A stretch of 64,000 nucleotides of DNA, from assembly GCF_000738775.1 (NCBI RefSeq), contig NZ_JPOC01000069.1, positions 1 through 64,000 on the forward strand, in the 5' to 3' direction. Shown one piece after another: positions 18,240-44,963 of this stretch (its first letter is position 1; each line of letters opens with the position of its first letter). The notes beneath the pieces were generated by a model. That model ran no database searches. It was not told the DNA's origin and saw only the letters and a program-made list of their open reading frames with translations. Source of the stretch: Prescottella defluvii. GTDB lineage: Bacteria > Actinomycetota > Actinomycetes > Mycobacteriales > Mycobacteriaceae. A program made the translations under genes and the position numbers.

Positions 18240-18306
18240 CCGACGACATCGCCGCGGACGTCACGAACCGTCCACGGTCACCCATTCCCATTCGAAAGGA
18301 ACTCCC

Positions 18307-19500
18307 ATGACGAAGGCTGTCATTGTCGACGCCGTCCGTCTCGCGTCCGGAAAGGGCAAGCCCGGAGGCGTCCTGTCCGGCACGCACCCGGTCGAGATGC
18401 TCGCCCAGGTTCTGCGCGCGCTGGTCGAGCGCAACGATCTCGATCCCGCAATGGTCGACGACGTGATCGGCGGCTGCGTCCAGCAGGTCGGTGAGCAGGC
18501 ACTCAACATCGCCCGCACCGCGCTGCTCTCCGCCGGCTTCCCCGAGTCCGTGCCGGCCACCACCCTCGACCGCCAGTGCGGGTCGAGCCAGCAGGCCGCA
18601 CACTTCGCCGCGCAGGGCATCATGGCCGGCGCCTACGACATCGTCATCGCGTGTGGTGTCGAATCGATGAGCCGTATCCCGATGGGAACGTCGGGCCTCG
18701 GCCAGGACACCGCCGGCCCAGGCATTGCCGCTCGGTACCCTGAAGGGCTTATCCACCAGGGCATCTCGGCCGAGCTGATCGCCGCGAAGTGGAAGCTGGA
18801 CCGCGAGACCCTCGACTCGTACTCGGCCGAATCACACCGTCGCGCCGCCGCGGCGATCGAGTCGGGCTTCTTCGACACCGAGATCGTGCCGATCACCGTC
18901 ACGGCCGGATCCAGCGAGACGTACGAGCACTCCACCGACGAGACCGTCCGAGCCGCGACCACCGCCGAGGGGCTGGCCGGCCTGCGCCCGTCGTTCCGCA
19001 GCGACGAGTTCGCGGAGCGGTTCCCCGAAGCTCAGTGGCACATCACTCCCGGCAACTCGTCGCCGCTGACCGACGGCGCCTCCGCCGTGCTGATCATGAG
19101 CGAGGAGATGGCGTCCAAGCTGGGCCTGACCCCCCGCGCCCGGTTCCACTCGTTCTCCGTCACCGGCGACGACCCGATGTTCATGCTCACCGCGCCCATC
19201 CCGGCCACCCGGAAGGTCCTCGCCAAGGCCGGGCTGTCGATCGACGACATCGACGCCTACGAGGTGAACGAGGCCTTCGCGCCCGTCCCACTGATGTGGG
19301 CCAACGAATTCGGTGCCGATCCCGCCAAGCTCAACCCCCGCGGCGGCGCCATCGCCCTGGGCCACGCTCTCGGTTCCTCCGGCACCCGCCTGCTCACCAC
19401 TCTCGTCAATCACCTCGAAGCCACCGGCGGCCGCTACGGCCTGCAGACCATGTGCGAGGGCGCCGGCATGGCCAACGCCACCATCATCGAACGAATCTGA
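18307..19500 (+). CDS. Thiolase (acetyl-CoA acyltransferase)
   Basis: 397 aa, full-length degradative-type thiolase. It cleaves 3-ketoacyl-CoA with CoA to acetyl- or propionyl-CoA and a shortened acyl-CoA. The nucleophilic cysteine is Cys91 in [12 protein letters not shown]. The other active-site blocks are [32 protein letters not shown] with the catalytic His, and the C-terminal [12 protein letters not shown], in which one glycine of the usual CxGGG is replaced. AAAGGA lies just before the ATG. It sits between the crotonase and the SDR, completing one beta-oxidation round. Confidence 0.92.
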
Positions 19501-19528
19501 ACCACAAACACTTTCGGAAGGAACTGAC

Positions 19529-20290
<762 letters not shown>

Positions 20291-20302
20291 TCATCTCGGC
20301 AT

Positions 20303-20354
20303 GAGGATGGGGCCGACCCCGGGAGTGCGTTCCCCGAGGGTCGGCCCCATCCTC
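20303..20354 (+). terminator. 17-bp stem hairpin after the SDR
   Basis: A perfect 17-bp stem (20303-20319 with 20338-20354) with an 18-nt loop follows the SDR stop by 12 bp. It separates the crotonase-thiolase-SDR run from the acyl-CoA dehydrogenase and ligase downstream. Confidence 0.75.
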
Positions 20355-20433
20355 GACAGCGCGTCCGAACTCGTTGCCACCGTGCCGAACTGCCCGCCAC
20401 CGCCGACACCGGACCTACATCCAGGAGCACCCC

Positions 20434-21591
20434 TTGAAGCGCAACCACTTCGAAGCCGACCACGAGGCGTACCGCGAGACGGTACGAGAGTTCCTGGCAC
20501 GCGAGATCGAACCCAACTACGAACGGTGGGAGCAGGAACGTCTGATCAGCCGTTCGGCGTGGACCGCCGCCGGTAAGTACGGCATCGCGGGGCTCGGTAT
20601 CCCGGAGGAGTTCGGTGGGGCCGGGGTCACGGACTTCCGGTTCAGGCAGGTCGTCTTCGAGGAGATCGCGCGGACCGGAACTACCTCGTTCGGCGCCGGC
20701 ATGAGCGTGCACGACGACATCGTCGTCCCGTACATCCTGCATCTCGGTACCCAGGAGCAGAAGGCCCGCTGGCTGCCGGGGATGGCCGCCGGAGAGACCA
20801 TCGGCGCGATCGCGATGACCGAACCCGGCGCCGGTTCCGACCTGCAGGGAGTGCGGACCACCGCAGTACGGGACGGCGACGAATGGGTGATCAACGGACA
20901 GAAGACGTTCATCACCAACGGCATCCACTCAGACATGGTGATCGTCGTGTGCCGCACCGACCCGAATGCCGGGTCGAAGGGCTTCTCCCTGATCGTCGTC
21001 GAGCGCGACACCCCAGGATTCACTCGCGGGCGCAAGTTGCACAAGGTCGGAATGGCCGCTCAGGACACCGCGGAACTGGTCTTCGAGGACGTACGCGTTC
21101 CGGCCGAGAACCTGCTCGGAACCGAAGGCCGAGGCTTCGTCCACCTGATGGAAAACCTGCCACTCGAACGGATCTCCATCGCCGTGTCTGCGATCACCGC
21201 AGCCCGCGCGGCATACGAATGGACCAAGGACTACGTGTTCGAACGCAAGGCGTTCGGAAAGCCGATCGGCGACCTGCAGAACACCCGATTCGTCCTCGCC
21301 GAGATGCGCACCGAGATCGAGGTCACCGAGTCCCACATCGACCGTGCCGTTCTCGCACTCAACACCGGTGACCTCACTGCTGTGGACGCGTCGATGAGCA
21401 AGTGGTGGGCAACCGAACTGCAGAAGCGGGTCATCGACCGCGGCGTCCAGATGCACGGTGGCTACGGCTACATGATGGAGTACCCGATCGGCCGCGCCTA
21501 CGTCGACTCGAGAATCCAGACCATCTACGGCGGCACCACCGAGATCATGAAGGAAATCATCGGCCGCGACATCGCCGCCGAGTTCCGATGA
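20434..21591 (+). CDS. Acyl-CoA dehydrogenase, long-chain (LCAD)-like
   Basis: 385 aa flavoprotein oxidising acyl-CoA to enoyl-CoA. FAD and substrate segments are AMTEPGAGSDLQGVRT, WVINGQKTFITNG, and the C-terminal QMHGGYGYMMEYPIGRAY and YGGTTEIMKEIIGRD. The base position of medium- and short-chain enzymes is glycine here (YGGT). A Glu in NLPLERISIA fits the alternative base used by LCAD and isovaleryl-CoA dehydrogenase, so activity is expected. The start is taken as TTG at 20434 (LKRNHFEADHEAYR) because CAGGAG precedes it and no in-frame ATG or GTG fits. The next gene follows after 55 bp. Confidence 0.85.
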   Translation: MKRNHFEADHEAYRETVREFLAREIEPNYERWEQERLISRSAWTAAGKYGIAGLGIPEEFGGAGVTDFRFRQVVFEEIARTGTTSFGAGMSVHDDIVVPYILHLGTQEQKARWLPGMAAGETIGAIAMTEPGAGSDLQGVRTTAVRDGDEWVINGQKTFITNGIHSDMVIVVCRTDPNAGSKGFSLIVVERDTPGFTRGRKLHKVGMAAQDTAELVFEDVRVPAENLLGTEGRGFVHLMENLPLERISIAVSAITAARAAYEWTKDYVFERKAFGKPIGDLQNTRFVLAEMRTEIEVTESHIDRAVLALNTGDLTAVDASMSKWWATELQKRVIDRGVQMHGGYGYMMEYPIGRAYVDSRIQTIYGGTTEIMKEIIGRDIAAEFR

Positions 21592-21646
21592 CACAAGACC
21601 ACGACACTCTCCCCGGCCAGGCCGGCCTGTTCGGAAAGTAGGAGTC

Positions 21647-23167
21647 ATGTTCCCCGGCACCCACAGCGTCACCACACCGGACAAGGCCGCCGTCGTCATG
21701 GCTGCGACCGGGGCGACCGTCACCTACGCCGAACTCGAAGAACGATCCGCTCGCTTCGCGAGATGGATGTTCGACGCGGGACTGCGGCGCGGCGACCACA
21801 TCGCCGTGCTGTGCGACAACGATCCGACGATCTTCGAGTTGTACTGGGGCGCGATGCGTTCCGGGATCTACTTCACGGCCGTCAATCACCACGGCACGGT
21901 CGACGATCTCGCCTACGTGGTCACCGACTCGGATGCGGCGGTGCTCGTCGTGTCGGCCGCTCTGACCGGGCTCGCCACGGATCTGGCGGGACGCGTTCCG
22001 GCGGGCTGCCTGAGACTGGCCTTCGGTGGCCCGGTCCCCGGCTACGACTCCTACGAGGATGCGGTGGGCGCGGTATCGGCGGAGCCGTTGCCGGACCAGC
22101 CGTGCGGGGCGGACATGGTGTACTCGTCCGGGACGACGGGCCGGCCGAAGGGCATCAAGTCGCCCCTGCCCGATCGGCAGGTTCACCAGCCGCCCGGTCT
22201 CCCGGTGACGGCGATCGTCGAGAAGTTCTACGGATTCGGCGTCGACACCGTCTACCTCTCGCCGGCACCGATCTACCACGCCGCGCCGCTGCGGTACTGC
22301 ACAGCAACCCAGTCGCTCGGCGGCACCGTGGTGCTGATGGACCGGTTCGACGCCCGCGACGCCCTCGCAGCGATCGAGCGGTACTCGGTGACGCACGCGC
22401 AGTGGGTGCCCACCCACTTCATCCGAATGCTGAAGCTGCCCGCTGAGGAACGGACCCGGTACGACCTGAGTTCGCTACGGGTCGCCGTCCACGCCGCCGC
22501 GCCCTGCCCGGTCGAGGTGAAGGAGGCGATGCTCGACTGGTGGGGCAACGTGCTCTACGAGTACTACAGCTGCTCCGAGAACAACGGATCCACCCTGATC
22601 GACAGCGTCGAGTGGCGGCGCAAACCGGGCAGCGTCGGCCGCGACGGCGTGCAGGGCATCGCCCACATCTGCTCGGATGACGGCCGCGAACTCGGCCCGG
22701 GCGAGGTCGGATTGCTCTACTTCGAACGCGACGACTGGACATTCGAGTACCACAACGATTCCGAGAAAACCGCCGCTGCAAGACATCCCGACCATCCGAC
22801 ATGGACGACGGTCGGCGACGTCGGCTACCTCGACGAGGACCGGTATCTGTATCTCACCGACCGGGCGACCTTCATGATCATCTCGGGTGGCGTCAACATC
22901 TACCCACAGCAGATCGAGAACTGCCTCAGCGTTCACCCCGCGATCTGGGACGTCGCGGTGATCGGTATTCCGGATCCGGAGATGGGGCAGTCGGTTCAGG
23001 CCGTCGTGCAGGTGATGCCCGGCGCGACTCCGTCCGACGATCTGGCCCGCGACATCATCTCCTACGCCCGTGACCGGCTCGCCCGCTACCTGTGCCCGCG
23101 GTCGGTGCGGTTCGTCGACGTCCTGCCCCGCACCGAGACCGGCAAACTGGCGAAGCACCGGCTGTAG
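21647..23167 (+). CDS. Acyl-CoA synthetase (AMP-dependent, FadD-type)
   Basis: 506 aa ANL-superfamily enzyme that activates a carboxylic acid as acyl-CoA. The P-loop is YSSGTTGRPKGIKSPL at about residue 160; YYSCSENNGS corresponds to A5; TVGDVGYLDEDRYLYLTDR and the hinge and lysine region RTETGKLAKHRL close the C-terminal domain. TAGGAG precedes the ATG. It ends 12 bp from the convergent TetR stop. Together with the acyl-CoA dehydrogenase before it, it would start a beta-oxidation route. Acid substrate not predictable; short to medium branched chain is plausible from the neighbouring racemase-like gene. Confidence 0.88.
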   Translation: MFPGTHSVTTPDKAAVVMAATGATVTYAELEERSARFARWMFDAGLRRGDHIAVLCDNDPTIFELYWGAMRSGIYFTAVNHHGTVDDLAYVVTDSDAAVLVVSAALTGLATDLAGRVPAGCLRLAFGGPVPGYDSYEDAVGAVSAEPLPDQPCGADMVYSSGTTGRPKGIKSPLPDRQVHQPPGLPVTAIVEKFYGFGVDTVYLSPAPIYHAAPLRYCTATQSLGGTVVLMDRFDARDALAAIERYSVTHAQWVPTHFIRMLKLPAEERTRYDLSSLRVAVHAAAPCPVEVKEAMLDWWGNVLYEYYSCSENNGSTLIDSVEWRRKPGSVGRDGVQGIAHICSDDGRELGPGEVGLLYFERDDWTFEYHNDSEKTAAARHPDHPTWTTVGDVGYLDEDRYLYLTDRATFMIISGGVNIYPQQIENCLSVHPAIWDVAVIGIPDPEMGQSVQAVVQVMPGATPSDDLARDIISYARDRLARYLCPRSVRFVDVLPRTETGKLAKHRL

Positions 23168-23179: not shown

Positions 23180-23845
23180 TCAATCGGATTGCGGGGCTCC
23201 CGATTCGGCATCCGCGCGGTCGAGACCGAGCGCTCCGATACACATCTGGTCCAGAGTATCGAGCAGGCTCGCCTCGTCCGCCTCGTCGCCCTGGACGAGC
23301 CACAGGTACAGGCTGTGGTCGACCATCGCCGCCATGGCACGGGCGGCCATGACCGGATCGAGGGACGCGCGAACCTCGCCCTGTTCCTGCCACCGGGCAA
23401 TGGCACGCGCGGTGCGGTCGATCAGCTGTCGACGATGCTCGTGGCGGAGGTCGCGGAATTCGTTGTTGAACGTCGCGACCTGCTCGACGATGGCCATCAG
23501 CTTCGCGTTGCGTCGGTACGCCTGGTAGTACGACCGGTTCGTTGCAATCAGTTTCGCGGCCGGCGACAGGTCGGGGTCGAGAGGTTCCCGGCGGTGCACA
23601 TCGTCGAACAGTCGGGTGCTCAACTCCTGGAACACGTCTTCTTTGGACTCGAAGTACCGGTAGAAGGTGCCGTAGGAGACGGACGCCTCCTGCGCGATCT
23701 GCTCCACTCGGGTGTCGGGGAACCCGACCTCCTCGAAGACCTTGCGCGCCGCGTCGAGCAGACTGTCCCGCGTCTTTCGCCCCCGCGCGGTGAGGGTGTC
23801 GACGGACGGCGGCGTGGAGGACGTGCTGGCGGGTGGCTTGCTCAC
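23180..23845 (-). CDS. TetR-family regulator with an identified operator
   Basis: 221 aa. The N-terminal HTH is at residues 22-70 (TRDSLLDAARKVFEEVGFPDTRVEQIAQEASVSYGTFYRYFESKEDVF) and is followed by a large helical ligand domain (DHSLYLWLVQ). Start GTG at 23845. A 19-bp palindrome lies 23 bp upstream, and an identical copy occurs 3.2 kb away between the SnoaL and VOC genes. Autorepression and control of those two operons follow from this arrangement. Likely ligand is an acyl-CoA intermediate of the acyl-CoA dehydrogenase/kinase pathway encoded nearby. Confidence 0.87.
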   Translation of the reverse strand: MSKPPASTSSTPPSVDTLTARGRKTRDSLLDAARKVFEEVGFPDTRVEQIAQEASVSYGTFYRYFESKEDVFQELSTRLFDDVHRREPLDPDLSPAAKLIATNRSYYQAYRRNAKLMAIVEQVATFNNEFRDLRHEHRRQLIDRTARAIARWQEQGEVRASLDPVMAARAMAAMVDHSLYLWLVQGDEADEASLLDTLDQMCIGALGLDRADAESGAPQSD

Positions 23846-23860: not shown

Positions 23861-23886
23861 GGAAACATGACATGACTGTCAAGTCA
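23861..23886 (-). promoter_or_regulatory. TetR operator over the regulator's own promoter
   Basis: TGACATGACTGTCAAGTCA at 23868-23886 has the symmetry TGACnTGACnGTCAnGTCA. Read on the minus strand it contains a consensus TTGACA (-35), followed 18 bp later by GATACT (-10, around 23853-23858), directed at the TetR gene. Binding would cover the -35 element. The identical 19-mer recurs at 27053-27071. Confidence 0.8.
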
Positions 23887-23909: not shown

Positions 23910-23952
23910 CTCGACCCCTCCAGCGTAGACAGGCGTCGCGGGAGGGGTCGAG
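23910..23952 (-). terminator. 12-bp stem hairpin after the kinase gene
   Basis: CTCGACCCCTCC (23910-23921) pairs perfectly with GGAGGGGTCGAG (23941-23952), 14 bp beyond the stop of the minus-strand kinase gene and just before the TetR promoter. It ends the SnoaL-dehydrogenase-kinase operon. Confidence 0.7.
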
Positions 23953-23965: not shown

Positions 23966-25342
23966 TCAGGCCGGAGACGGCCCGCGGAGGTGACGGGGGT
24001 TCGCCACCCGCAGCCGGGCGAGCACCGTCGTCGAGACGGTCCGGCAGACGGCGGGATCCGCGTACGGGAGGGTGCCCGCGCGAAGGCGGTCGGCAAGATC
24101 GGCCTCGGAACCGCAGCCGAGGGCCGTGAGCGCGGCCTGCACCTCGCCCGTGGAGTCGCCGGCACCGATCTCCCGTTCCGCGATACCCAGCAGGTTGACG
24201 CAGATCCGGAGCAGGTACCGCTCCCGCTCGTGCACGCCGTCGAGCACGGGGCCGACGTCGTCGCGAAGGGTGCCGCTGACCAACTCGAGGATCTCCGACA
24301 GGCTCGGACGGTCGTGCAGCGATGGCGCCGTGACGTCCGGGAGCGGCTCGACGTCGTCGAGCAGACCCAGGATCAGGAGCAGGTCGTACTCGGACTCGCA
24401 CACCCGCCGCCCGATCGCGGCGAGCTCGATCGAGTCCTCGGCCCCGCTGAGGTGCCGCTGCGACTGGAACTGGCTGAGCACCAACCACCGGAGGGTGCCG
24501 TAGGCCTCCCACCAGTGCAGTTCGTCGTCCGACGGCCGGATGCCCGTGGCGCGTTCGTAGCCGTCGAGCAGCTGTGCCCGGGTACCGATACCGGCGACCG
24601 GCGGCTCCGCGCCGAACCGCCACGCGCGCACGCAGAGCCATCCGAGGTCCTCGATCGGGTCACCGAGGTGCGCGAGTTCCCAATCCAGCACCCCGCGGAT
24701 CCCGGTGCCGTCGACCATCACGTTGCCGAGCCGGAAGTCACCGTGTACCAATGCGTCCGGCCGCTTGGCCGGCCGGTTGTCCCGCAGCCATCGAAGCCCG
24801 ATCTCGACGACGGGGCGGGGCTGATCGAGGTTCCGGTACACGGCCTCGATCGCATCCAACGGATCGCGGGCATCGAGCATCCCGAGGGTGCCGGTGTCGG
24901 CGGAGTGGATCTGCCCCAGCACGTACCCCATGTCGTCGGCGAGATGCGCCCGCACCTCGTCGAGCCCGGGGTCCCGCTGCAGCTTCCGCGGGATCGACTC
25001 GCCGACAACCATGTCCATCACCAGATACGGTGCATCGATGCCCGGTGCAGTGTCCCCCGACGCGAGGACGGCGGGAGCCGGAACCCCCACTGCCGCGGCG
25101 GCCCGCAGACACGCGACCTCCGCCCGCATCCGGTCGGCGTCGCCGTGCCCGGGCGGGTCCCGGCGCAGCACCACCTCCTGCGATCGGCCGTCCGCGTCGC
25201 GGACCTCGATCGCCCACACCTGACGGCTCGCGCCGCCGGTCAGCTGGCGGGGTTCCCCGACGGTCACCTCGGTACCGAAGGCCTCGCGCAGCGTGAGACG
25301 AACTCCGTCACCGAGGCTCACGGGAGCGTGGGTCACAGCCAC
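23966..25342 (-). CDS. Phosphotransferase (APH fold) fused to a DUF6285-like domain; LvaA-LvaB-like
   Basis: 458 aa. Residues 1 to about 340 form an aminoglycoside-phosphotransferase-like kinase with the catalytic loop VHGDFRLGNVMVD and the metal motif VLDWELAHLGDPIEDLGWL. Residues about 345-458 (RPSLSEILELV to RVANPRHL) look like the small DUF6285 protein often encoded separately beside such kinases. In Pseudomonas the separate pair LvaA/LvaB phosphorylates 4-hydroxyacyl-CoA, and the acyl-CoA dehydrogenase LvaC then removes phosphate to give the enoyl-CoA. Here the kinase overlaps an acyl-CoA dehydrogenase by 10 bp. A role in moving a 4-hydroxy group is therefore inferred. GTG start at 25342. 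Confidence 0.8.
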   Translation of the reverse strand: MAVTHAPVSLGDGVRLTLREAFGTEVTVGEPRQLTGGASRQVWAIEVRDADGRSQEVVLRRDPPGHGDADRMRAEVACLRAAAAVGVPAPAVLASGDTAPGIDAPYLVMDMVVGESIPRKLQRDPGLDEVRAHLADDMGYVLGQIHSADTGTLGMLDARDPLDAIEAVYRNLDQPRPVVEIGLRWLRDNRPAKRPDALVHGDFRLGNVMVDGTGIRGVLDWELAHLGDPIEDLGWLCVRAWRFGAEPPVAGIGTRAQLLDGYERATGIRPSDDELHWWEAYGTLRWLVLSQFQSQRHLSGAEDSIELAAIGRRVCESEYDLLLILGLLDDVEPLPDVTAPSLHDRPSLSEILELVSGTLRDDVGPVLDGVHERERYLLRICVNLLGIAEREIGAGDSTGEVQAALTALGCGSEADLADRLRAGTLPYADPAVCRTVSTTVLARLRVANPRHLRGPSPA

Positions 25343-26517
25343 GGCGCGGCACCCGGATCGCGCAGCAGTCGACGCGCCGTCGACATGCGATGCACCTCGT
25401 CCGGACCGTCGTAGACACGCGCGTAGCGCGCCTGCCGGTACATCCGTTCGAGCGGGGTGTCGGCAGTCAGTCCGAGCGCGCCGTGCACCTGGATGGCGCG
25501 ATCGACGACGTCGTGGAGCATCCGGGCTCCCCAGAACTTCACGAGACCGATCTGAATCCGAGCATCGTCGCCGGCATCCATCGCACGGGCGGCATCGAGG
25601 GTCATCAGGCGGGCCGCGTGGATCTGCGCCGCGGACTCCGCGATGTACCGGTGAATTTCACCCTTCTCGGCGAGCAGCGACCCGTGCACGTAGCGGGTGT
25701 TCGCGCGCTCGCACATCAGCTCGAATGCGCGCTGCGCCTGGCCGAGCCAGCGCATGCCGTGGAAGATCCGGCCGGGCCCGAGCCGGTCCTGCGCGACGAC
25801 GAAGCCCTTGCCCCGTTCGCCGAGCAGGTTGGCCACCGGCACCCGGACGTCGGTGAGCCGGACCTCGTAATGGTCGCTGGGATCGTGCCCCATGGTCGGG
25901 ATCGACCGGACGATCTCGAACCCGGGAGTGTCGGTCGGCACAATGATCGCGCTGATCCGGGAGTGCCGGGGCGCCGACTCCGGCTCGGTGCGCGCGAAGA
26001 CCGAACAGTATCCGGCGTCCGCCACACCGGTGGTGAACCACTTGAGCCCGTTGATGACCCAGGTATCGCCCTCGAGTTCCGCACGGGTCTCGATCAGCGT
26101 GGGGTCGGAGCCCGCGGTGTCGGGTTCGGTCAGACCGACCGACGGCAGGAACTCTCCCGCGACGATCGGCGGGATCCACCGTTGCTTCTGCTCGTCGGTT
26201 CCGTGCTTGTGCAGCATCAGGGTGTCCTGCATGGACACCGAACCGACCGCCAGCTGACCGAACTCGGATCGGCCGATGACCTCGTTGAGGAAGACGAAGT
26301 CGAGGAACGGAACGCCGCCACCCCCGACATCGGCCGGGTGCCCGAGCGCCCACAGGCCGAGCTCCTTCGCCCGTGAGCGCAACTGTTCGAGAGTCTTGTG
26401 GGCGACCTCGTCCTCCTTCGCGAGGACGGGTTCCGCCGGGATCACCTCGCCGTCGATGAACGCGCGCATCCGAGCACACAGGTCGGCGATGTCGCCTTCG
26501 GGATGGTTCGCAGTCAT
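25333..26517 (-). CDS. Acyl-CoA dehydrogenase, ACAD10/11 or LvaC-like
   Basis: 394 aa. FAD-domain motifs are GLTEPDTAGSDPTLIETRAE, WVINGLKWFTTG and FARTEPES; the C-terminal block VHGALGLTADTPLERMYRQARYARVYDGPDEVHRMSTARR has DGPDEVH, the pattern of the ACAD10/11 group. Family members partner an APH-type kinase; in mammals both domains are in one chain. Here the two genes overlap by 10 bp, which keeps products in fixed ratio. AAGGAGG lies before the ATG inside the SnoaL gene end. Probable job: elimination of phosphate from a 4-phosphoacyl-CoA to an enoyl-CoA, or plain dehydrogenation if the kinase acts elsewhere. Confidence 0.85.
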   Translation of the reverse strand: MTANHPEGDIADLCARMRAFIDGEVIPAEPVLAKEDEVAHKTLEQLRSRAKELGLWALGHPADVGGGGVPFLDFVFLNEVIGRSEFGQLAVGSVSMQDTLMLHKHGTDEQKQRWIPPIVAGEFLPSVGLTEPDTAGSDPTLIETRAELEGDTWVINGLKWFTTGVADAGYCSVFARTEPESAPRHSRISAIIVPTDTPGFEIVRSIPTMGHDPSDHYEVRLTDVRVPVANLLGERGKGFVVAQDRLGPGRIFHGMRWLGQAQRAFELMCERANTRYVHGSLLAEKGEIHRYIAESAAQIHAARLMTLDAARAMDAGDDARIQIGLVKFWGARMLHDVVDRAIQVHGALGLTADTPLERMYRQARYARVYDGPDEVHRMSTARRLLRDPGAAPWL

Positions 26518-26900
26518 GAGTGCCTCCTTGTGGCAGCAGCGGTCTGCAGGGGTCGAGTGGCGGCCGAATCGACGTACTCGTCGATACGGGAGACCCGCCC
26601 GTCCTCGACGCGGACGAACAGGCTGGCCGGCACCTCCAGCGGACCGTGTCCCGGGAGGGTGCCGCGCACGACGTGCTGTTGAGCGAATCCGTCGGGCAGC
26701 GTGTAGCGCCGAATGTCTTCGTAGCGGAGATTCTCGACGGTGCGGCCGAGCCAGCGCAGGGTGCGGAGATTCTCCGCGACCGTCTGTTCCAGTCCGTCGT
26801 CGTTGTGCCAGATGCGCGCGTCCGGCGAATACAGTTCGGCGAGCGTTGCCTCGTCGCCGCTGCAGACGGCGGCGAAAAAGCGATCTGCAAGGTCGTTCAT
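26514..26900 (-). CDS. SnoaL/NTF2-like small protein (WHN type)
   Basis: 128 aa single NTF2-like cone fold. It shares with two other proteins of this window (43510 and 44595) the pattern ARIWHNDDGLEQTVAENLRTL, then GFAQQHVVRG and a C-terminal RVEDGRVSRIDEYVD. Members of this superfamily act as cyclases, isomerases, dehydratases or binding proteins; the conserved Trp-His-Asn lines the pocket in comparable folds. First gene of the operon with the acyl-CoA dehydrogenase (4-bp overlap) and kinase, and divergent from a VOC protein. The ATG at 26900 was chosen for the AGGAGA upstream; the longer frame is a shadow. Exact reaction unknown. Confidence 0.78.
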   Translation of the reverse strand: MNDLADRFFAAVCSGDEATLAELYSPDARIWHNDDGLEQTVAENLRTLRWLGRTVENLRYEDIRRYTLPDGFAQQHVVRGTLPGHGPLEVPASLFVRVEDGRVSRIDEYVDSAATRPLQTAAATRRHS

Positions 26901-27037: not shown

Positions 27038-27071
27038 GACTATCCAAGAATGTGACATGACTGTCAAGTCA
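27038..27071 (-). promoter_or_regulatory. Second TetR operator, between SnoaL and VOC genes
   Basis: TGACATGACTGTCAAGTCA at 27053-27071 is identical over 19 bp to the site before the TetR gene at 23180-23845. On the minus strand it holds TTGACA and, after 17 bp, GATAGT, a near-consensus promoter for the SnoaL-dehydrogenase-kinase operon. Its right edge is 44 bp from the VOC start, so the + strand operon can be controlled as well. Confidence 0.8.
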
Positions 27072-27115: not shown

Positions 27116-27682
27116 ATGAAGGCCGTCAATCCGAAGTTCGAGTTCCGCGGAATCAATCACCTCGCGCTCGTGTGCTCGGACATGCAGCGCACCATCGACT
27201 TCTACTCGGGCACACTGGGTATGCCACTCGTCAAGACGCTCGATCTTCCCGGAAACCTCGGACAGCACTTCTTCTTCGACTGCGGAGGCGGAGACACGCT
27301 GGCGTTCTTCTGGCTGGCGGACGCACCGGACGGAGTTCCCGGGGTCTCCGCCCCGGCGGGACTGCCCGACCGGGACGAGCTCGTCAGCGCCGTCGGCTCG
27401 ATGAATCACGTGGCGTTCGCCGTCCCGCCGGAGAAGTTCGACGAGTACCGCAAGCGACTCAAGGCCGACGGCGTGCCGCTGAGCATCACCCTCAACCACG
27501 ACGACAGCCCCGAGGGCGCATCGCGGGAGATCCATGACGGCACCTTCGTCCGGTCGTTCTACTTCCAGGACCCCGACGGCGTCCTCCTCGAATTTGCCTG
27601 CTGGACACGTGAGCTCACCGAGGCCGACGTCTCGCACACGCCGAAGACCGCCGCCGACCGCCGCGTTCCCAGCGCTTCCTGA
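27116..27682 (+). CDS. VOC-superfamily protein (glyoxalase/dioxygenase fold)
   Basis: 188 aa with two beta-alpha-beta-beta-beta modules. Candidate metal ligands are His15 (GINHLALVCSDM), a His in GSMNHVAFAV, and the Glu in DGVLLEFACWTREL, the classic H/E layout of the superfamily. The central HFFFDCGGGDTLAFFW is shared with the protein at 44026, its close paralogue. Known members include glyoxalases, epimerases and extradiol-type dioxygenases, so the reaction is open. It heads a + strand operon with a carboxymuconolactone-decarboxylase-family protein and an ABM protein, under the TetR operator at 27053. AAAGGA precedes the ATG. Confidence 0.8.
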   Translation: MKAVNPKFEFRGINHLALVCSDMQRTIDFYSGTLGMPLVKTLDLPGNLGQHFFFDCGGGDTLAFFWLADAPDGVPGVSAPAGLPDRDELVSAVGSMNHVAFAVPPEKFDEYRKRLKADGVPLSITLNHDDSPEGASREIHDGTFVRSFYFQDPDGVLLEFACWTRELTEADVSHTPKTAADRRVPSAS

Positions 27683-27701: not shown

Positions 27702-28340
27702 ATGCCCCGCCTTCGTGAGGTCCCCCGCGCCGAGGTGACCGACGAGAAGATCCTCTTCTTCTACGACCGACTGTTCGGCCCCGACAAGGATCCCGCCGTC
27801 GACCACGGCACCATCCACGCCACCCCCGGCGACTGGTGGACCGTCTTCGCCCAGTCCTCCGACGTATTCCGGCACGCGGTACGCGGGTTCGCCCTCTACC
27901 GCAACGCCAGCCTCGACCCGCTGCTGCGCGAACTCGGCCAGGCCCGCGCCGGCTACGCCCGCGGCAGCCAGTTCGTCTTCTCCCAGCACTGCAAGCAGAT
28001 GCGCTCCCTCGGCGCGACCGAGGAGAAGATCGCGGCCCTCCCGCACTGGCAGATCAGCGACTTGTTCTCCGACATCGAGCGTGCCGTACTCGCCTACACC
28101 GACGGGCTCGTCCACGACGGCGGACGAGTCCCCGACGAGGTGTTCGCGGTCCTCCAGGCACACCTGTCGGACAAGGAGATCATGGAACTGACGTACATCA
28201 CCTGCATGTACGACATGCACGCCACGATCTGCCGCGCACTGCGACTCGAGTTCGACGACCGCCCCGAGCTGATCGAGGAAGTTCGTATCCCCGAAGGCGT
28301 CGTCGTCGCCGACCTCTCCGCCGACCTGGCCGGGGAGTAG
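27702..28340 (+). CDS. Carboxymuconolactone decarboxylase/AhpD-family protein
   Basis: 212 aa all-helical CMD-like protein. The core region ELGQARAGYARGSQFVFSQHCKQMRSLGATEEKIAAL has the typical spacing of this family but only the single Cys-containing SQHCKQ element rather than CxxC, so a peroxidase role is less likely. The N-terminal PRLREVPRAEVTDE and late MELTYITCMYDMHATICRAL are also typical. Such proteins often sit in aromatic and ketone degradation operons without a proven reaction. It starts 19 bp after the VOC stop with AAAGGA upstream. I infer it works on the same intermediate as the VOC protein. Confidence 0.78.
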   Translation: MPRLREVPRAEVTDEKILFFYDRLFGPDKDPAVDHGTIHATPGDWWTVFAQSSDVFRHAVRGFALYRNASLDPLLRELGQARAGYARGSQFVFSQHCKQMRSLGATEEKIAALPHWQISDLFSDIERAVLAYTDGLVHDGGRVPDEVFAVLQAHLSDKEIMELTYITCMYDMHATICRALRLEFDDRPELIEEVRIPEGVVVADLSADLAGE

Positions 28341-28391: not shown

Positions 28392-28688
28392 ATGGAACTT
28401 GTCGCTGTCCTGGAACTGACGTTCAAGCCGGACTCCCTCGAGTCGGCGCGCACCGTGATGGCGCGGGTGCTCACGGAGACTCGCCAGTTTCCCGGTTGCA
28501 TCTCCGTGAAGTCGGTCGTCGATAGCAAGCACCCCAACACCTGGCGTTTCGTCGAAACCTGGGAATCGGCCGAGCACGACGCCGAGTACCGCAAGTTCCG
28601 AGCCGGAGAGGGAGCCATCACCGATCTCGGCCCGCTGCTCGCAGGCGCACCGTCGCTCACCACGGGAACCGTCGACCCGGGACTGTGA
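28392..28688 (+). CDS. ABM-domain (antibiotic biosynthesis monooxygenase-like) protein
   Basis: 98 aa single ferredoxin-like ABM domain. ELVAVLELTFKPDSLESA, the PGCISVKSVVDSKHPNT strand pair and WRFVETWESAEHDAEYRK match the small dimeric ABM family, which includes cofactor-free monooxygenases and heme-degrading proteins. It is last gene of the VOC operon, 51 bp behind the decarboxylase-like gene, and is followed by a strong bidirectional hairpin. Its function in the pathway is not known. Confidence 0.75.
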   Translation: MELVAVLELTFKPDSLESARTVMARVLTETRQFPGCISVKSVVDSKHPNTWRFVETWESAEHDAEYRKFRAGEGAITDLGPLLAGAPSLTTGTVDPGL

Positions 28689-28768: not shown

Positions 28769-29983
28769 TCAGCTCGTCGCCTGGGCCGCGGTCCCGGCCG
28801 ACTGCAGGTCCGCCCATTGGCCGTCATCGACGCCGGCCAGCGTGGCGAGGACCTCACGGGTGTGTTCACCGAGACCCGGCCCCGGCGCGGGAGTGGCCGG
28901 CTGGGACCGGGAGAACTTGGGTACGACACCGGCGGCGGGCACCGCCACCCCGAACTGATTGACGAGGCGCACCACCATGTCGCGCGCGGCGTAGTGCGGA
29001 TCGGCGAGCATGTCCGGAGCGGTGTAGATGCGACCGGCCGGAACGCCGCTGTCCTCCATGATCTTCAACAGCACATCGGAACCCACCGTCGATGTCCAGG
29101 CACCGATGATGCCGTCGATCTCGGCCATGTTGTCGCCGCGCGGGCCGTGCTCGGCAAACCTCGGGTCGTCCGCCAGCTCGGGCCGGCCCATCGCGGTGCA
29201 GAGTCTGCGGAAGACGTTGTCGGCGTTGGCTGCGATGATCACTTCGGCTCCGTCGGATGTGGGGTACACATTCGACGGCGCCACACGGGGCAGCACCGAT
29301 CCGGTACGGCCGCGGGTGACACCGGCGATTTCGTGGTCGGCCATCGTCGATTCCATCAGGGCCGCGACCGCCTCGTAGATCGCGACGTCCACCTCCTGGC
29401 CCCGGCCACTGACCGAGCGCTCGTGGATTGCGGCGAGCGTTCCGATCACGGCGAACAGGGCTGCCAGGGAATCGCCGAGGCTGATGCCGACGCGGGTGGG
29501 GGGAAGCTCGGGATTACCCGTCGTGTGCCGGATGCCACCCATCGCCTCGCCGACACTGCCGAAACCGGCGTCCGTCGAACGTGGTCCGTTCTGACCGAAT
29601 CCCGAGACGTGGACGAGGATGATGCGCGGGTTGATTGCGGAGAGGGTCGCGTAGTCGAGTTCCCACTTCGCAAGCGTGCCGGGACGGAAGTTCTCGAGGA
29701 CGATGTCAGCTTCGGCGACCAGTTTGCGGATCAGGTCCCGGCCCTCGGGCTGACGCAGGTCGATCGCCACCGACTTCTTGTTACGCGCGATGGAGGGCCA
29801 CCACAGGCTTTCACCGTCGACCGTGACGCCCCACCGACGCATCGAGTCACCGGATGCGGGCGCCTCGACCTTGAGTACCTCAGCCCCGTAATCACCCAAG
29901 AGCTGCCCCGCGAAGGGGCCGGCAATGAAACTCCCCAGTTCGAGCACGCGCAGGCCGCTGAGCGGACCAGAAGATGTAGCCAT
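28769..29983 (-). CDS. CaiB/BaiF-family CoA transferase
   Basis: 404 aa type III CoA transferase. Conserved segments are GLRVLELGSFIAGPFAGQLLGDYGAEVLKVE, WWPSIARNKKSVAIDLR, ENFRPGTLAKWELDY and HVSGFGQNGPRS; a conserved Asp in GISLGDSLAALFAV fits the acyl-anhydride-forming aspartate. It moves CoA between an acyl-CoA donor (often succinyl-CoA) and an organic acid. ATG at 29983; the site GATTGTACACAATC lies only 5 bp before it, so the leader must be very short. Divergent from the GntR gene. The linked HMG-CoA-lyase-like gene suggests a branched dicarboxylic acid as acceptor, which is inference. Confidence 0.85.
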   Translation of the reverse strand: MATSSGPLSGLRVLELGSFIAGPFAGQLLGDYGAEVLKVEAPASGDSMRRWGVTVDGESLWWPSIARNKKSVAIDLRQPEGRDLIRKLVAEADIVLENFRPGTLAKWELDYATLSAINPRIILVHVSGFGQNGPRSTDAGFGSVGEAMGGIRHTTGNPELPPTRVGISLGDSLAALFAVIGTLAAIHERSVSGRGQEVDVAIYEAVAALMESTMADHEIAGVTRGRTGSVLPRVAPSNVYPTSDGAEVIIAANADNVFRRLCTAMGRPELADDPRFAEHGPRGDNMAEIDGIIGAWTSTVGSDVLLKIMEDSGVPAGRIYTAPDMLADPHYAARDMVVRLVNQFGVAVPAAGVVPKFSRSQPATPAPGPGLGEHTREVLATLAGVDDGQWADLQSAGTAAQATS

Positions 29984-30115: not shown

Positions 30116-30889
30116 GTGGCAACCACACCGCAGGCACCAGGCCAGGTCGCCTACTCCCAGATTCGCCAAGCGATCGTCGAGGGGCGCTACCGACCGGGTC
30201 AACGCCTGATCGAACAACGGATCGCCGAGCAGTTCGCGCTGTCTCGTACACCCGTGCGCGAGGCGCTTCGACGGCTCGAGGCCGAGGGGCTCGTCCTCAG
30301 CGAGCCGAACCGGGGAGCCGTCGTCCGCACCCTGTCGAGGGCCGACGTATCGGATATGTACGGTCTGCGCGCCCGACTCGAGGCCTACGCCGCCGAGCTC
30401 GCGGCCGAGCGCATCGACCCCGCCGAGCGGGAGCTTCTCGACGCGGGAATCGAGGCCTTCGCCCTGGCCCTGGCCTCCACTCCTGCCGATGCGGTCGATC
30501 GGGTTCGCGCCGTGGACACTGCGAACAGCCAGATCCATCGGGCCATCATGGCCGCCGCCAGGCACGAGCGGTTGAGCCGCCTACTCGAGAGCACTACCGA
30601 CGTACCGCTCGTCTTCCAGGCGTTCCGCCAATACGATCGCGGCCAGACGGAGCGATCACACCTGTTCCACCAACTCATCCGCGACGCGATCGTCGACGGC
30701 GACGGCCGACGCGCATCAGCCCTGATGTACGAGCATGTCCTGCAGGGCCGCGACGTGCTTCTCGCCCACCTCGCAGCGACCAGCAGCGACGAGGTGGACG
30801 AGCTGTTCGGCACGTCAGCGCGGAAAGCCGCCCGCACGAGCGAGCTGACCGGGAACCGGGGCGCCGAGAACACCGCCGAGCCAGTCTGA
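30116..30889 (+). CDS. GntR-family regulator, FCD subfamily
   Basis: 257 aa. The N-terminal winged helix (YSQIRQAIVEGRYRPGQRLIEQRIAEQFALSRTPVREALRRLEAEGLV) is at residues 13-75, and the C-terminal FCD helical domain (YGLRARLEAYAAELAAERI, NSQIHRAIMAAARHERLSRLL, HLFHQLIRDAIVDGD) holds His and Asp positions that bind a metal and an organic acid in relatives. GTG start at 30116 after AAAGAGG. Its last 75 bp overlap the convergent lyase gene. Three GATTGT..ACAATC sites in the next 2.2 kb define its probable regulon: CoA transferase, lyase, ligase and lactonase. Confidence 0.87.
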   Translation: MATTPQAPGQVAYSQIRQAIVEGRYRPGQRLIEQRIAEQFALSRTPVREALRRLEAEGLVLSEPNRGAVVRTLSRADVSDMYGLRARLEAYAAELAAERIDPAERELLDAGIEAFALALASTPADAVDRVRAVDTANSQIHRAIMAAARHERLSRLLESTTDVPLVFQAFRQYDRGQTERSHLFHQLIRDAIVDGDGRRASALMYEHVLQGRDVLLAHLAATSSDEVDELFGTSARKAARTSELTGNRGAENTAEPV

Positions 30890-31699
30890 CGCCTCGATCA
30901 ACTCGGACAGCCGGGCGCCCGACGGAATCCCACTGCGGTCGAGGAGATAGACCAGGTCCTCGGTCGCGATGTTGCCGGTGGCGTCCGGAGCAAACGGGCA
31001 TCCGCCGATCCCGCCGATCGAGGAATCCAGCACTGTCACACCGGCATCGATCGCCGCGACCGCGTTCGCGTAGCCGGTGTTGCGGGTGTTGTGGAAGTGG
31101 CAGCGCAGCCGAACGCCGGGCGCCGCTGCCGCGGTCCCCGCAACCAATCGGGCGACCTGGGCGGGCACCCCGACCCCGATGGTGTCGGCCAGCGCAATCT
31201 CGTCCACCCCCAACTCGGCCACCTGCCCCGCCAGGGCGAGGACCGCGGCTTCGGGAACCTCCCCCTCGAACGGGCAACCGAAGGCGGTGGCGATGGTGAC
31301 CGACACGCCGACGCCGGCGGCGCGGGCATCGTCGACGAGATCACGCACCGTGTGCACCGAGTCCGCGACCGACATCCGCTGGTTGCGCAGACTGAAGGTC
31401 TCGGACGCCACGACAACACAATTGACCTCGTTCACACCCGCCGCCACCGCGCGGTCGAAACCGCGGCGATTGAGCACGAGGCCGCTGTACGAGACATCGG
31501 CACGGCGCGGAACCCCCGCCATGACTGCCTCCGCATCGGCCATCTGCGGCACCGCGGCCGGGTGCACGAAGCTGGTGGCCTCGATTCGACGCAAGCCAGA
31601 CGCGATGGCGCGCTCGATGAGCGCGATCTTGTCGGCCGTCGAAACGTGCACCGCCTCGTTCTGCAGCCCGTCGCGGGGGCTCACCTCCACGATCTCCAC
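30815..31699 (-). CDS. Hydroxymethylglutaryl-CoA lyase-like enzyme
   Basis: 294 aa DRE-TIM metallolyase. It begins VEIVEVSPRDGLQNEAVHV, the metal-binding motif of HMG-CoA lyases. Later blocks are HFHNTRNTGYANAVAAIDAGV and SSIGGIGGCPFAPDATGNIATEDLVYLL with the catalytic cysteine. It cleaves HMG-CoA, or a related 3-hydroxy-3-alkyl dicarboxyl-CoA, to acetyl-CoA and an oxo acid. The GTG at 31699 is taken because GGAAGGGG precedes it; an ATG at 31753 would sit inside the GntR operator. The 3' end overlaps the convergent GntR gene by 75 bp. Confidence 0.87.
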   Translation of the reverse strand: MEIVEVSPRDGLQNEAVHVSTADKIALIERAIASGLRRIEATSFVHPAAVPQMADAEAVMAGVPRRADVSYSGLVLNRRGFDRAVAAGVNEVNCVVVASETFSLRNQRMSVADSVHTVRDLVDDARAAGVGVSVTIATAFGCPFEGEVPEAAVLALAGQVAELGVDEIALADTIGVGVPAQVARLVAGTAAAAPGVRLRCHFHNTRNTGYANAVAAIDAGVTVLDSSIGGIGGCPFAPDATGNIATEDLVYLLDRSGIPSGARLSELIEASDWLGGVLGAPVPGQLARAGGFPR

Positions 31700-32275: not shown

Positions 32276-33811
32276 ATGCTTTACAGCGATCTTCTGCGGC
32301 GAAACGCCGTTCGCTTCCGCAATCGGACCGCGCTCGCGATGGACGATGGATCGGACTCCCGGACCTACGCCGAGCTCTACCAGCGTGCCCTGCGCCTGGC
32401 CAACGGTCTGAGCGGCCTAGCCGCGCCCGGTGATCGAGTTGCACTGCTGTCCGAGAACAACCTCGAGTACGTCGAGGCCTACTACGGCGTCCCGAGCGCC
32501 GGCATGGTTCTGACCCTGCTCAACTACCGGCTGCACCCCAAGGAATGGGTCTGGATCCTGAACGACTCGGGGGCCCGCGTGCTGATCGTGGAGTCGAAGT
32601 TCCTGGAGGTGATCGCGGACCACCGCTCCGAACTCACGAGCGTCGAGCACATCATCGTGATCGGGGAGAAAGCCACGGGTTTCACGCCGTACGAGAACGT
32701 CCTGCAGTCCGCGTCGACCATTGCCCCACGGCTGCAGATCAGCGACGACGACGACGCCTGGCTCCTGTACACCAGCGGAACAACCGGTAAGCCCAAGGGT
32801 GCTCGGCTCAGCCATCGCAACCTCAACACCGCGTTGGTCCAGTCCGCGATCGAATACGACCCGCGACCGGACACCTGCTTCCTCAACCCCCTGCCGCTCT
32901 GCCACATCGCCGGCTACCTGACCCCGCTCCACCAGTTCCACGGCGGCTCGGTCCTGATGATGACCGGCTGGGATCCCGAGCGGTGGATGCAGTTGGTGCG
33001 GGATCACCGCGTGACGAGCGCCGGGCTCGTTCCGACGATGGTGCAGATGCTGCTGACCCACCCGAAGATCAACGACTACGACCTCGGCAGCCTGGAGTGG
33101 TTGGGCTACGGCGCGTCGAAGATTCCCGCAGACGTGCTGCGCCACACCATCGATCAGTTCGGCCCGATCGTGTACGCGGGCATGGGCATGACGGAACTCG
33201 GCGGCAACATGCTCACGCTCGACAAGGCCGCACACGTCCGGGCGGCTCACGGCGAGGAGCATCTGCTCAACGCCGTCGGGAAGCCGATGTCCCTGGTCGA
33301 TGTCCGCGTCGTCGATCCGTTCGGAGAAGACTGCGCGACCGGCGAGGTCGGGGAGATCGTGGTGCAGGGCGATCAGGTGACCAAGGGCTACTTCGGCAAT
33401 CCCGAGGCGGACGGCCAGGCGTTCAGGGACGGCTGGTTCCACACCGGGGACCTGGCCCACCAGGACGAGGAGGGCTTCCTCTACATCGTCGATCGCGCCA
33501 AGGACATGATCATCTCGGGCGGCGAGAACGTGTACTCCAGCGAGGTCGAGAACGCGATCTACACCCACCCCGACGTCCTCGAAGCCGCGGTCATCGGAAC
33601 ACCCGACGAGAAGTGGGGCGAGCTCGTCACCGCTGTCGTCGTCCGCAAGCCCGGGACCCAGCTGACCGCCGACGACGTGGTCGGCAGTTGCAGGTCCCAG
33701 CTCGCCACCTTCAAGCAGCCCCGCAAGGTCGTCTTCGTCGACGAGATGCCCCAGACCGTCAGCGGCAAGATCCGCAAGAACGTTCTGCGGGAACAGTTCT
33801 CTGACAACTGA
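32276..33811 (+). CDS. Acyl-CoA synthetase (AMP-dependent)
   Basis: 511 aa ANL ligase. The P-loop LLYTSGTTGKPKGARLSH is near residue 165, GMGMTELGGNML forms A5, and GWFHTGDLAHQDEEGFLYIVDRAKDMIISGGENVYSSEVE and the terminal PQTVSGKIRKNVLR carry the C-terminal domain and catalytic lysine. ATG at 32276 with GGAG upstream. It is co-transcribed with a lactonase-like gene 36 bp on. With a GntR site in its promoter it belongs with the CoA transferase and lyase, perhaps activating the first acid of the route. Medium-chain or aromatic acids are both possible. Confidence 0.88.
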   Translation: MLYSDLLRRNAVRFRNRTALAMDDGSDSRTYAELYQRALRLANGLSGLAAPGDRVALLSENNLEYVEAYYGVPSAGMVLTLLNYRLHPKEWVWILNDSGARVLIVESKFLEVIADHRSELTSVEHIIVIGEKATGFTPYENVLQSASTIAPRLQISDDDDAWLLYTSGTTGKPKGARLSHRNLNTALVQSAIEYDPRPDTCFLNPLPLCHIAGYLTPLHQFHGGSVLMMTGWDPERWMQLVRDHRVTSAGLVPTMVQMLLTHPKINDYDLGSLEWLGYGASKIPADVLRHTIDQFGPIVYAGMGMTELGGNMLTLDKAAHVRAAHGEEHLLNAVGKPMSLVDVRVVDPFGEDCATGEVGEIVVQGDQVTKGYFGNPEADGQAFRDGWFHTGDLAHQDEEGFLYIVDRAKDMIISGGENVYSSEVENAIYTHPDVLEAAVIGTPDEKWGELVTAVVVRKPGTQLTADDVVGSCRSQLATFKQPRKVVFVDEMPQTVSGKIRKNVLREQFSDN

Positions 33812-33847: not shown

Positions 33848-34786
33848 ATGTCTTTCAACGTAGTCACGACCGGCCTCAAGTTCCCTGAAGGCCCGGTGGC
33901 ACTGCCCGGCGGCGACGTGTTGGTCGTCGAGATCCATCGCGGCACGCTCACCCGCGTATCCCCCGACGGCACCACCACGGTGGTCGCCGAAGTCGGCGGC
34001 GGCCCCAACGGCGCCGCGATCGGCCCCGACGGTCGCGCGTACATCGCCAACTGCGGAGGGATGAACGCCACCGAAGCCTACGGTTACGTCTTCGCCGGCG
34101 GGACCCCCGACGACTACACCGGGGGCAGCATTCAAGCCGTCGACCTCGAAACCGGCGAGGTCGAGACGCTCTACACCGAGTGCGACGGCATCGCCCTTCG
34201 CGGCCCCAACGACATCGTCTTCGACGCGCACGGCGGCTTCTACTTCACCGACCACGGCAAGAGCGATGGCCTGACGACCGATCACGGCCGCGTCTACTAC
34301 GGCACCATCGACGGTTCGTCCATCCGTCTGGTCGCCGCGGAAATGCACGGCCCCAACGGAATCGGGATTTCCCCCGACGGCACCCGCCTCTACGTCAGCG
34401 AAACCTACACCGCGCGCGTCTGGTGGTGGGAGGTCACCGGCCCGGGTGAAGTCGTCGGTGGCCTCACGCTCGCCGGCTCCGGCGGGGGCAACTTCCTCTA
34501 CGGATCGCCGGACTTCCGCTACTTCGATTCGCTCGGCGTCGAGGCGGACGGCAACATCTGCGTCGCGTCACTGGCCACCCCCGGCATCTGCGTGATCAGT
34601 CCGGACGGCGAGTTGGTCGAGTTCGTCGGCATCGACACCGACGGCGACCCCGGGATCACGAACATCTGCTGGGGAGGGCAGGACATGCGGACGGCGTACG
34701 TCACCGCCTCGAGCACCGGCAAGCTGCTCCGATTCGACTGGCCCCGAGCCGGTCTGGTTCTCAACAACCAGGCCGTGCCGGTCTGA
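33848..34786 (+). CDS. SMP-30/gluconolactonase-family lactonase
   Basis: 312 aa six-bladed beta-propeller. Repeating blades are visible (KFPEGPVALPGGDVLVVEIHRGTLTRV, GGGPNGAAIGPDGRAYIANCGG, GPNDIVFDAHGGFYFTDHG, GPNGIGISPDGTRLYVSETYTARVWWWE). Conserved Glu, Asn and Asp residues in these (PEG, GPND, PDG) supply the divalent metal site. It probably opens a lactone to a hydroxy acid, which the ligase upstream could activate. GAGGAGA precedes the ATG. Last gene of its operon, followed by a strong hairpin. Confidence 0.85.
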   Translation: MSFNVVTTGLKFPEGPVALPGGDVLVVEIHRGTLTRVSPDGTTTVVAEVGGGPNGAAIGPDGRAYIANCGGMNATEAYGYVFAGGTPDDYTGGSIQAVDLETGEVETLYTECDGIALRGPNDIVFDAHGGFYFTDHGKSDGLTTDHGRVYYGTIDGSSIRLVAAEMHGPNGIGISPDGTRLYVSETYTARVWWWEVTGPGEVVGGLTLAGSGGGNFLYGSPDFRYFDSLGVEADGNICVASLATPGICVISPDGELVEFVGIDTDGDPGITNICWGGQDMRTAYVTASSTGKLLRFDWPRAGLVLNNQAVPV

Positions 34787-44598: not shown

Positions 44599-44963
44599 GT
44601 GAGATGCTCGCGCTCGCAGACAAGATGTTCACCGCCCTCAGCCGAGGCGATGTCGCCGTCCTCGACGAGATCTATCACGCGGACGTGAAGATCTGGCACA
44701 ACTGGGACAACGCCGAGCAGTCCCGTGAGGACAACCTCCGCATCCTCTCGGGCATCCCCACCCGCTATGACGACTTCGGCTACGACGAAGCCCGCTGTAC
44801 CGCCCTCGAGGACGGCTTTGTGCGCCAGCACGTCATCCGGGCGACTATCGGGGACAAGACCGTCAACGTCCCCACGATCTTCCGGGTGTTCGTCGACGGC
44901 GGTAAGATCCGCCGCATCGAGGAGTACCTGGACGCCGGCGAACTTCGCAAGGTCTTTGCCTGA
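44595..44963 (+). CDS. SnoaL/NTF2-like small protein (WHN type)
   Basis: 122 aa, nearest relative of the protein at 43510 (same length; DVKIWHNWDNAEQSREDNLRIL and GFVRQHVIRATIGDKTVNVP align without gaps). The GTG start at 44595 overlaps the VOC stop. An ATG at 44604 is an alternative start. Last gene of the operon, followed by a strong terminator. Two near-identical SnoaL proteins around one VOC protein suggest a heteromer or sequential use. Confidence 0.8.
   Translation: MSEMLALADKMFTALSRGDVAVLDEIYHADVKIWHNWDNAEQSREDNLRILSGIPTRYDDFGYDEARCTALEDGFVRQHVIRATIGDKTVNVPTIFRVFVDGGKIRRIEEYLDAGELRKVFA

Follow-up and report, generated by a model that had tools for sequence, protein, structure and literature searches.

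In Pseudomonas putida KT2440, the lva operon encodes a kinase (LvaA), a DUF6285 protein (LvaB) and an acyl-CoA dehydrogenase (ACAD) with a catalytic aspartate (Asp-type). LvaB is a 12-kDa protein that was pulled down with LvaA and is needed on levulinate, and lvaABCD homologues have been placed in Alpha-, Beta- and Gammaproteobacteria (PMC6692424; this and the other papers are cited from the portions of text available). Mammalian ACAD10 and ACAD11 phosphorylate 4-hydroxyacyl-CoA and then eliminate phosphate with no added electron acceptor (PMC11342911, PMC12440821), and the kinase part of ACAD10 or its ACAD part could each be substituted by a bacterial orthologue (PMC11342911). We analyzed 64,000 nucleotides of Prescottella defluvii (contig NZ_JPOC01000069.1, positions 1 to 64,000; the window), where an initial annotation had described a kinase with a DUF6285-like domain next to an ACAD10/11-like dehydrogenase. 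Both open reading frames (ORFs) were present on the minus strand (458 and 394 aa, Table 1). The parts of the locus are of known kinds; what is new is the fusion of LvaA to LvaB, an altered partner enzyme and a putative private genetic switch. From sequence comparison, we think it fairly probable that the locus is a TetR-regulated accessory module for ATP-dependent hydroxyacyl-CoA dehydration, probably at C4, with a substrate other than levulinate.

In the 458-aa protein, an APH-type kinase is joined to a DUF6285 domain, with VHGDFRLGN and LDWE as first read; the catalytic HGD.R..N and DWE motifs are intact in alignments (motif residues D202, N207 and D220). Its DUF6285 (PF19802) match scored 56.3 bits against a curated cut-off of 28.1 and was the only one in the whole genome. 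The resemblance of the C-terminus to DUF6285 thus held, with an extent of residues 370-450 and not 345-458 as proposed. An AlphaFold model of the whole fused protein was confident (predicted local distance difference test, pLDDT, 91.6; predicted template-modeling score, pTM, 0.90), and the LvaB-like domain is predicted to be all-helical.

By synteny in a canonical lva operon and by profile, the C-terminal DUF6285 domain is identified as LvaB. On a Stutzerimonas stutzeri plasmid (L196), such an operon encodes a PrpR-like regulator, phosphotransferase, DUF6285 protein (profile score 1.9e-21), histidine phosphatase, ACAD, short-chain dehydrogenase/reductase (SDR), acyl-CoA synthetase, DUF485 protein and cation acetate symporter. 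When 33 window-type domains were aligned by hhalign with 9 proteins at the LvaB position of lva-type operons, a reference that stands in for P. putida LvaB itself, the match extended over 115 columns (probability 99.6, E 6.8e-25). Five further Pseudomonadota loci (L172-L176) combined kinase, DUF6285, Asp-type ACAD and SDR genes, with a ligase in all but L176. The same gene set as in L172-L175 was found in L177, with the ligase on the opposite strand and the kinase and DUF6285 fused. In the available portions of PMC6692424, we found no statement of a role for LvaB beyond LvaA binding. The P. citronellolis cluster is reported there without lvaB. A histidine phosphatase gene follows LvaB in the Stutzerimonas operon (L196:5875-9983), and one is numbered three after lvaA in P. 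citronellolis; because of this placement near lvaA, lvaB may have been missed in that cluster.

The kinase bears the marks of LvaB-linked kinases, in agreement with its initial reading as LvaA-type. A WRFG motif (residues 241-244) and an ELA..G....E..LL tail are common to the window and lva-operon kinases and absent from ACAD11-type kinases. In a recount leaving out identical copies, WRFG/A was present in most distinct kinases with DUF6285 within 1 kb (118/124) versus 1/15 of those without DUF6285 in the locus. The ACAD11-type kinases that we aligned lack WRFG and have no LvaB nearby, unlike the window kinase, and this division predicts which kinases need LvaB. Within the kinase tree, however, the window kinase was placed far from the lva-operon kinases. 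The combination of kinase, LvaB and Asp-type ACAD recurs in Actinomycetota, Pseudomonadota and one Thermus plasmid.

LvaB-linked kinases with LvaB fused or separate were also observed near ACADs with a catalytic glutamate (Glu-type, EGAEEIQ-like) in L045, L046, L051, L052, L069, L072, L076 and L077, and further in L080, L082-L084, L090, L092, L093, L105, L126, L127, L133 and L179-L181. Those from Gordonia (L077, L082-L084) and from the same family (L045, L046, L051, L052) resemble the window in having a kinase and DUF6285, fused or adjacent, but their ACAD is of the EGA[ED]EIQ type with catalytic Glu and lacks all of the phosphate-site residues described below.

The kinase gene overlaps that of the ACAD by 10 nt from its first GTG or by 4 nt (GTGA) from the second, and the YDGPDEVH sequence that had suggested an ACAD10/11-like enzyme was present as quoted; tree and residues both placed it in that clade. 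Its nearest solved structures were human ACAD11 (2wbi, 237 bits), a Mycobacterium abscessus enzyme (4hr3, 233) and mouse ACAD11 (231 and 228), with the next at 194. The window ACAD carries RLGPGRIFHGMR at residues 245-256 and a catalytic Asp at 370. In an alignment of 72 distinct rows (41 Asp-type and 31 others), equivalents of ACAD11 R626, H634, M636, R637 and D753 were found in all Asp-type rows, the window included (41/41), whereas no other row had the full set (0/31). Turnover of 4-phosphoacyl-CoA has been linked to the Asp, to the HCMR motif and, as a likely contributor, to R626 (PMC12440821). A 53-row quick tree, for which the program warned of long branches that meet, grouped Asp-type ACADs with human ACAD11, 4hr3 and lva-type ACADs (Shimodaira-Hasegawa-like approximate likelihood ratio test, SH-aLRT, 98), and the Glu-type partners, which lack the phosphate-site residues, apart (SH-aLRT 100). 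The window ACAD belongs to an actinobacterial subclade (16 tree rows, SH-aLRT 99; 21 aligned rows) other than that of the lva enzymes.

The arrangement of the genes also distinguishes the window from both described systems. While the mammalian kinase is fused to the ACAD, here it is fused to LvaB; and while LvaA and LvaB are separate in Pseudomonas, in the window they form one chain in the gene order SnoaL - ACAD - kinase/LvaB. The additional SnoaL protein of the initial annotation is encoded by a SnoaL_2 gene at the head of the operon, which overlaps the ACAD gene as ATGA. A TetR gene lies beside the operon, whereas the P. putida operon has a PrpR-like/sigma-54 regulator.

The fusion in an actinobacterium is real, yet it recurs and is not peculiar to this organism. 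Among the matches listed (80 named relatives, retrieved with a query built from fused proteins and so biased toward fusions), kinase and DUF6285 were fused in 51 and separate genes in 29. In evenly drawn samples, DUF6285 was found in 26/296 Actinomycetota genomes (25 over the cut-off) and 26/299 Pseudomonadota genomes. It was fused in four of the 26 bearing Actinomycetota (G000, G307, G029 and G082; a count that leaves out G277) and in four of the 26 Pseudomonadota (L177 and L179-L181; 20 loci fetched, one being L122, and five assessed only by their open frames, which at 124-291 aa could not hold a fusion). The kinase tree requires 13 changes between fused and separate states, 5 of them forced by starred branches. 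One Pseudomonadota locus, L177:2303-7823, has lva-operon content (SDR, Asp-type ACAD and the ligase on the opposite strand) with a fused kinase-LvaB; since its kinase falls among the lva-type kinases in the tree, this fusion apparently arose independently of the actinobacterial ones. Genes of this kind are labeled 'DUF6285 domain-containing protein' in RefSeq; the term 'DUF6285' was not found in the open-access literature searched, and no LvaA-LvaB fusion is mentioned in the available portions of PMC6692424, PMC9628823, PMC12440821 and PMC11342911. Such a fusion, natural, recurrent and confidently modeled as one chain, offers a single protein in which to probe the role of LvaB.

We found that TGACATGACTGTCAAGTCA, a 19-bp imperfect palindrome, occurs exactly twice in the window. 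The initial annotation had assigned the operon a dedicated TetR: a TetR gene and matching operator-like sites do frame it, and the binding of TetR to the 19-bp site is predicted from this sequence arrangement. A degenerate form, TGACNNGACNGTCNNGTCA, matched only the two window sites in the 5.13 Mb genome (reversed-pattern control, 0). Across the genus, a related pattern with ≤1 mismatch was confined to the three DUF6285-bearing genomes (G007 with one mismatch); the reversed control matched a single site by chance, in G003. The putative operator is therefore not a common site, and its rarity is as would be expected of the cluster's own site. Eight related loci (L033, L061-L066 and L068) also have it at the VOC/TetR or VOC/SnoaL promoter, and two of them, L033 and L061, carry another copy ahead of tetR. 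In L063, L065 and L066, an extra operator-like copy was seen near an acyl-CoA ligase gene, at 179-1003 bp from the part of it that was matched. We observed there the variant operator TGACGTGACAGTCATGTCA (L063:17156-17174, L065:13403-13421 and L066:12107-12125), upstream of a homologue of the window ligase at 32276-33811; the regulon would therefore extend to this ligase.

The neighborhood is likewise conserved. The counts leave out the window itself, kinase-less loci and those shorter than 11 kb, and the queries were window proteins, which favors close kin. Loci with a window-type ACAD carried VOC (13/19 versus 3/95 of the others), CMD (13/19 versus 2/95), SnoaL (10/19 versus 3/95), HMG-CoA-lyase-like (7/19 versus 4/95) and SMP-30 genes (6/19 versus 4/95); a family III CoA-transferase was present in 7/19.

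The genome encodes two further Asp-type ACADs at E 1e-60 (contigs C7 and C66). Like mammalian ACAD10/ACAD11 and the window, the C7 pair combines a kinase with an Asp-type ACAD bearing the R626/H634/M636/R637/D753 equivalents; its ACAD has APDTGN and the HCMR motif, and its adjacent kinase lacks WRFG and DUF6285. C7-type ACADs (38-41% to the window ACAD) were matched at E 1e-60 in 12/14 genus genomes, all but G002 and G012, with a kinase alongside in 8/8 loci examined, own genome included (8 of the 12 genomes). The DUF6285 module was present in 3/14 genus genomes, in one of which (G007) kinase and LvaB are separate genes. Because the genome has this other ACAD11-type kinase-ACAD pair, whose ACAD recurs so widely in the genus, the window module is accessory and not housekeeping. 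The third Asp-type ACAD (L226:13101-14276 = C66:79100-80275) has RLGPGRIHHAMR and the catalytic Asp, lacks PDxGN and is 45% identical to the window ACAD; there are same-kind matches in other genus genomes, and it has no adjacent kinase, the nearest lying about 7 kb away.

Given the residues, gene coupling and operator in common, the module would carry out the same two steps as ACAD10/11 on some hydroxyacyl-CoA. What the comparisons show directly is the domain make-up, the homology to LvaB, the class of the kinase, the catalytic residues, the operator-like site in common and the conservation; we infer the reactions, the hydroxyl position and the substrate, along with any roles for LvaB, SnoaL, VOC and CMD. 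The fused kinase would phosphorylate a CoA-bound acid on its hydroxyl group, most likely one at C4. The Asp-type dehydrogenase with its FAD would then take the alpha proton and expel phosphate, with no net oxidation. The 2-enoyl-CoA product would enter beta-oxidation, and the gene set at 17439-23167 could take it. The LvaB domain would be a helical accessory subunit of LvaB-linked kinases, here covalently attached. Rather than levulinate, a different hydroxy acid, perhaps lactone-derived or branched, is probably the natural substrate; a lactone-derived acid is no more than plausible, given that related clusters encode an acyl-CoA ligase and an SMP-30-like possible lactonase. If this is true, the way mammals use 4-hydroxy fatty acids would exemplify a broader bacterial strategy, with further substrates to find. 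A broader picture can be put forward tentatively: a distinct actinobacterial branch of phosphorylation-driven dehydration with a re-cut ACAD pocket for bulky or branched, lactone-derived hydroxyacyl-CoA and a VOC/CMD/SnoaL regulon, the kinases falling into an LvaB-dependent class (WRFG; Asp- or Glu-type ACADs) and an LvaB-free class (ACAD10/11-like).

Several observations weigh against dehydration by this route. The window ACAD shares only about 38% identity with ACAD11. The PDxGN loop of ACAD11-type ACADs was not found in any subclade row, the window included (21/21), and is present in the other 20 distinct Asp-type rows. Where ACAD11 Pro463 maps, assuming chain numbering, all subclade rows have Gln (21/21), and proline occurs in only part of the other 20; this proline is credited with enlarging the cavity to admit phosphorylated substrates (PMC11342911). 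In place of the Cys of HCMR, the window ACAD has Gly; among the remaining rows this residue is Cys, Ala, Ser, Gly or Val. The window operon contains neither an SDR (LvaD) nor an acyl-CoA synthetase (LvaE), unlike the lva operon; acyl-CoA ligases and one SDR are present in other units of the window. Among 123 LvaB-linked kinases, an ACAD within 400 bp was Glu-type for 21, Asp-type for 24 and not recognized for 78, so the second step does not follow from the kinase class by itself. Lastly, the kinase's top fold matches include 25-hydroxysteroid kinase and other kinases of non-CoA substrates. The changed pocket loop of the subclade argues for a substrate other than that of the usual Asp-type ACADs.

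The initial annotation had placed the same pathway as in Pseudomonas in an actinobacterium, and LvaB, the kinase and the ACAD clade agree with this. The module could then be a plain levulinate/4-hydroxyvalerate or general 4-hydroxy fatty acid pathway, in other words an actinobacterial version of the lva system in which A and B are fused, given its LvaB domain, LvaA-class kinase and LvaC-clade ACAD and the requirement for each of LvaA, LvaB and LvaC on levulinate in P. putida (PMC6692424). We consider this unlikely. Since the operon lacks the SDR and ligase and the ACAD pocket loop is changed, levulinate/4-hydroxyvalerate is not a likely natural substrate; L172-L175 and L177 have both genes beside the kinase, and L196 has transporters too, which were not looked for around the window operon. 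The kinase's distance from lva-operon kinases also speaks against it, and the module is an accessory copy in a genome whose separate ACAD11-type pair could serve general 4-hydroxy acids.

The 25-hydroxysteroid kinase (25-HSK) of Sterolibacterium denitrificans is likewise an APH-fold kinase for activated alcohol dehydration but acts on a 25-hydroxysteroid, a tertiary alcohol, and its lyase partner was still to be found in the available portions of PMC8449060. Structural searches (Foldseek, VIA-align) ranked 25-HSK (9fsg/9ft5), Rv3168 and 3dxp as top matches of the window kinase, and HMG-CoA-lyase-like and CoA-transferase genes recur beside the module, as if the kinase phosphorylated a tertiary or remote hydroxyl of an isoprenoid or steroid-like acid and the Asp-type ACAD were the phosphate lyase for that ester. 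The ACAD mechanism, however, requires a thioester-activated alpha proton. Fold rank reflects which structures have been solved, and WRFG is absent from 3dxp and the aligned ACAD11-type kinases (25-HSK and Rv3168 lie outside the alignment). This makes a steroid-like route rather improbable. That kinase and ACAD are not sequential, the one modifying another small molecule and the other being an ordinary FAD dehydrogenase, is very doubtful: APH-fold kinases use many alcohols and most LvaB-linked kinases have no recognized ACAD nearby, but here the genes overlap and have an operator-like site in common, the ACAD has the catalytic Asp and phosphate-site residues, and the three-part combination recurs across phyla.

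Table 1. Positions in the window of the kinase-LvaB operon, its candidate control sites and its neighbors.
Feature	Position	Strand	Basis or remark
Fused kinase (LvaA-type) and LvaB (DUF6285), 458 aa	23966..25342	-	alternative GTG start at 25336
APH kinase domain, residues 32-265	24548..25249	-	Pfam PF01636 4.7e-39, alignments, motif counts
LvaB-like DUF6285 domain, residues 370-450	23993..24235	-	PF19802 5.3e-15, hhalign, structure model
Asp-type acyl-CoA dehydrogenase, ACAD10/11/LvaC clade, 394 aa	25333..26517	-	Pfam ACAD domains, structure matches, tree, alignment
SnoaL_2-like protein, 128 aa, first gene of operon	26514..26900	-	SnoaL_2 E 2.8e-9 and 1.2e-9
TetR-family regulator	23180..23845	-	PF00440 (TetR_N) 8.5e-17
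19-bp operator-like site TGACATGACTGTCAAGTCA, tetR promoter	23868..23886	.	
Operator-like site identical to TGACATGACTGTCAAGTCA, divergent SnoaL / VOC promoter	27053..27071	.	
Terminator-like hairpin 3' of kinase gene	23910..23952	-	16-nt arms, 94%; putative function
VOC (glyoxalase/dioxygenase-fold) protein, operator in common with SnoaL operon	27116..27682	+	PF00903 1.4e-17
CMD/AhpD-like protein, after VOC gene	27702..28340	+	PF02627 2.2e-10
ABM-domain protein, 3' of CMD	28392..28688	+	PF03992 4.5e-9; putative member, by position
Family III CoA-transferase (approximate start)	28769..29962	-	PF02515 3.3e-120; linked via conserved neighborhood
HMG-CoA-lyase family protein	30815..31699	-	PF00682; NF004283 over cut-off; linked via conserved neighborhood
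Acyl-CoA ligase; homologue in three relatives with operator copy upstream	32276..33811	+	
SMP-30/gluconolactonase-like, possible lactonase	33848..34786	+	PF08450 1.1e-39; 4 genome copies

Beyond the operon, a plus-strand run at 17439-23167 encodes enoyl-CoA hydratase, thiolase, SDR, an ordinary ACAD and acyl-CoA synthetase and ends just before tetR; enoyl-CoA hydratase, thiolase, SDR and ACAD genes also lie beside the cluster in L033. A second VOC gene (44026-44598), resembling that at 27116, lies between small ORFs at 43510-43878 and 44604-44963, both SnoaL-like by eye, the former without a Pfam match at E 1e-4. At 8404-10376, genes for a 4-hydroxy-2-oxovalerate aldolase-like protein (HMGL plus DmpG communication domain) and acetaldehyde dehydrogenase belong to a lower meta-cleavage pathway.

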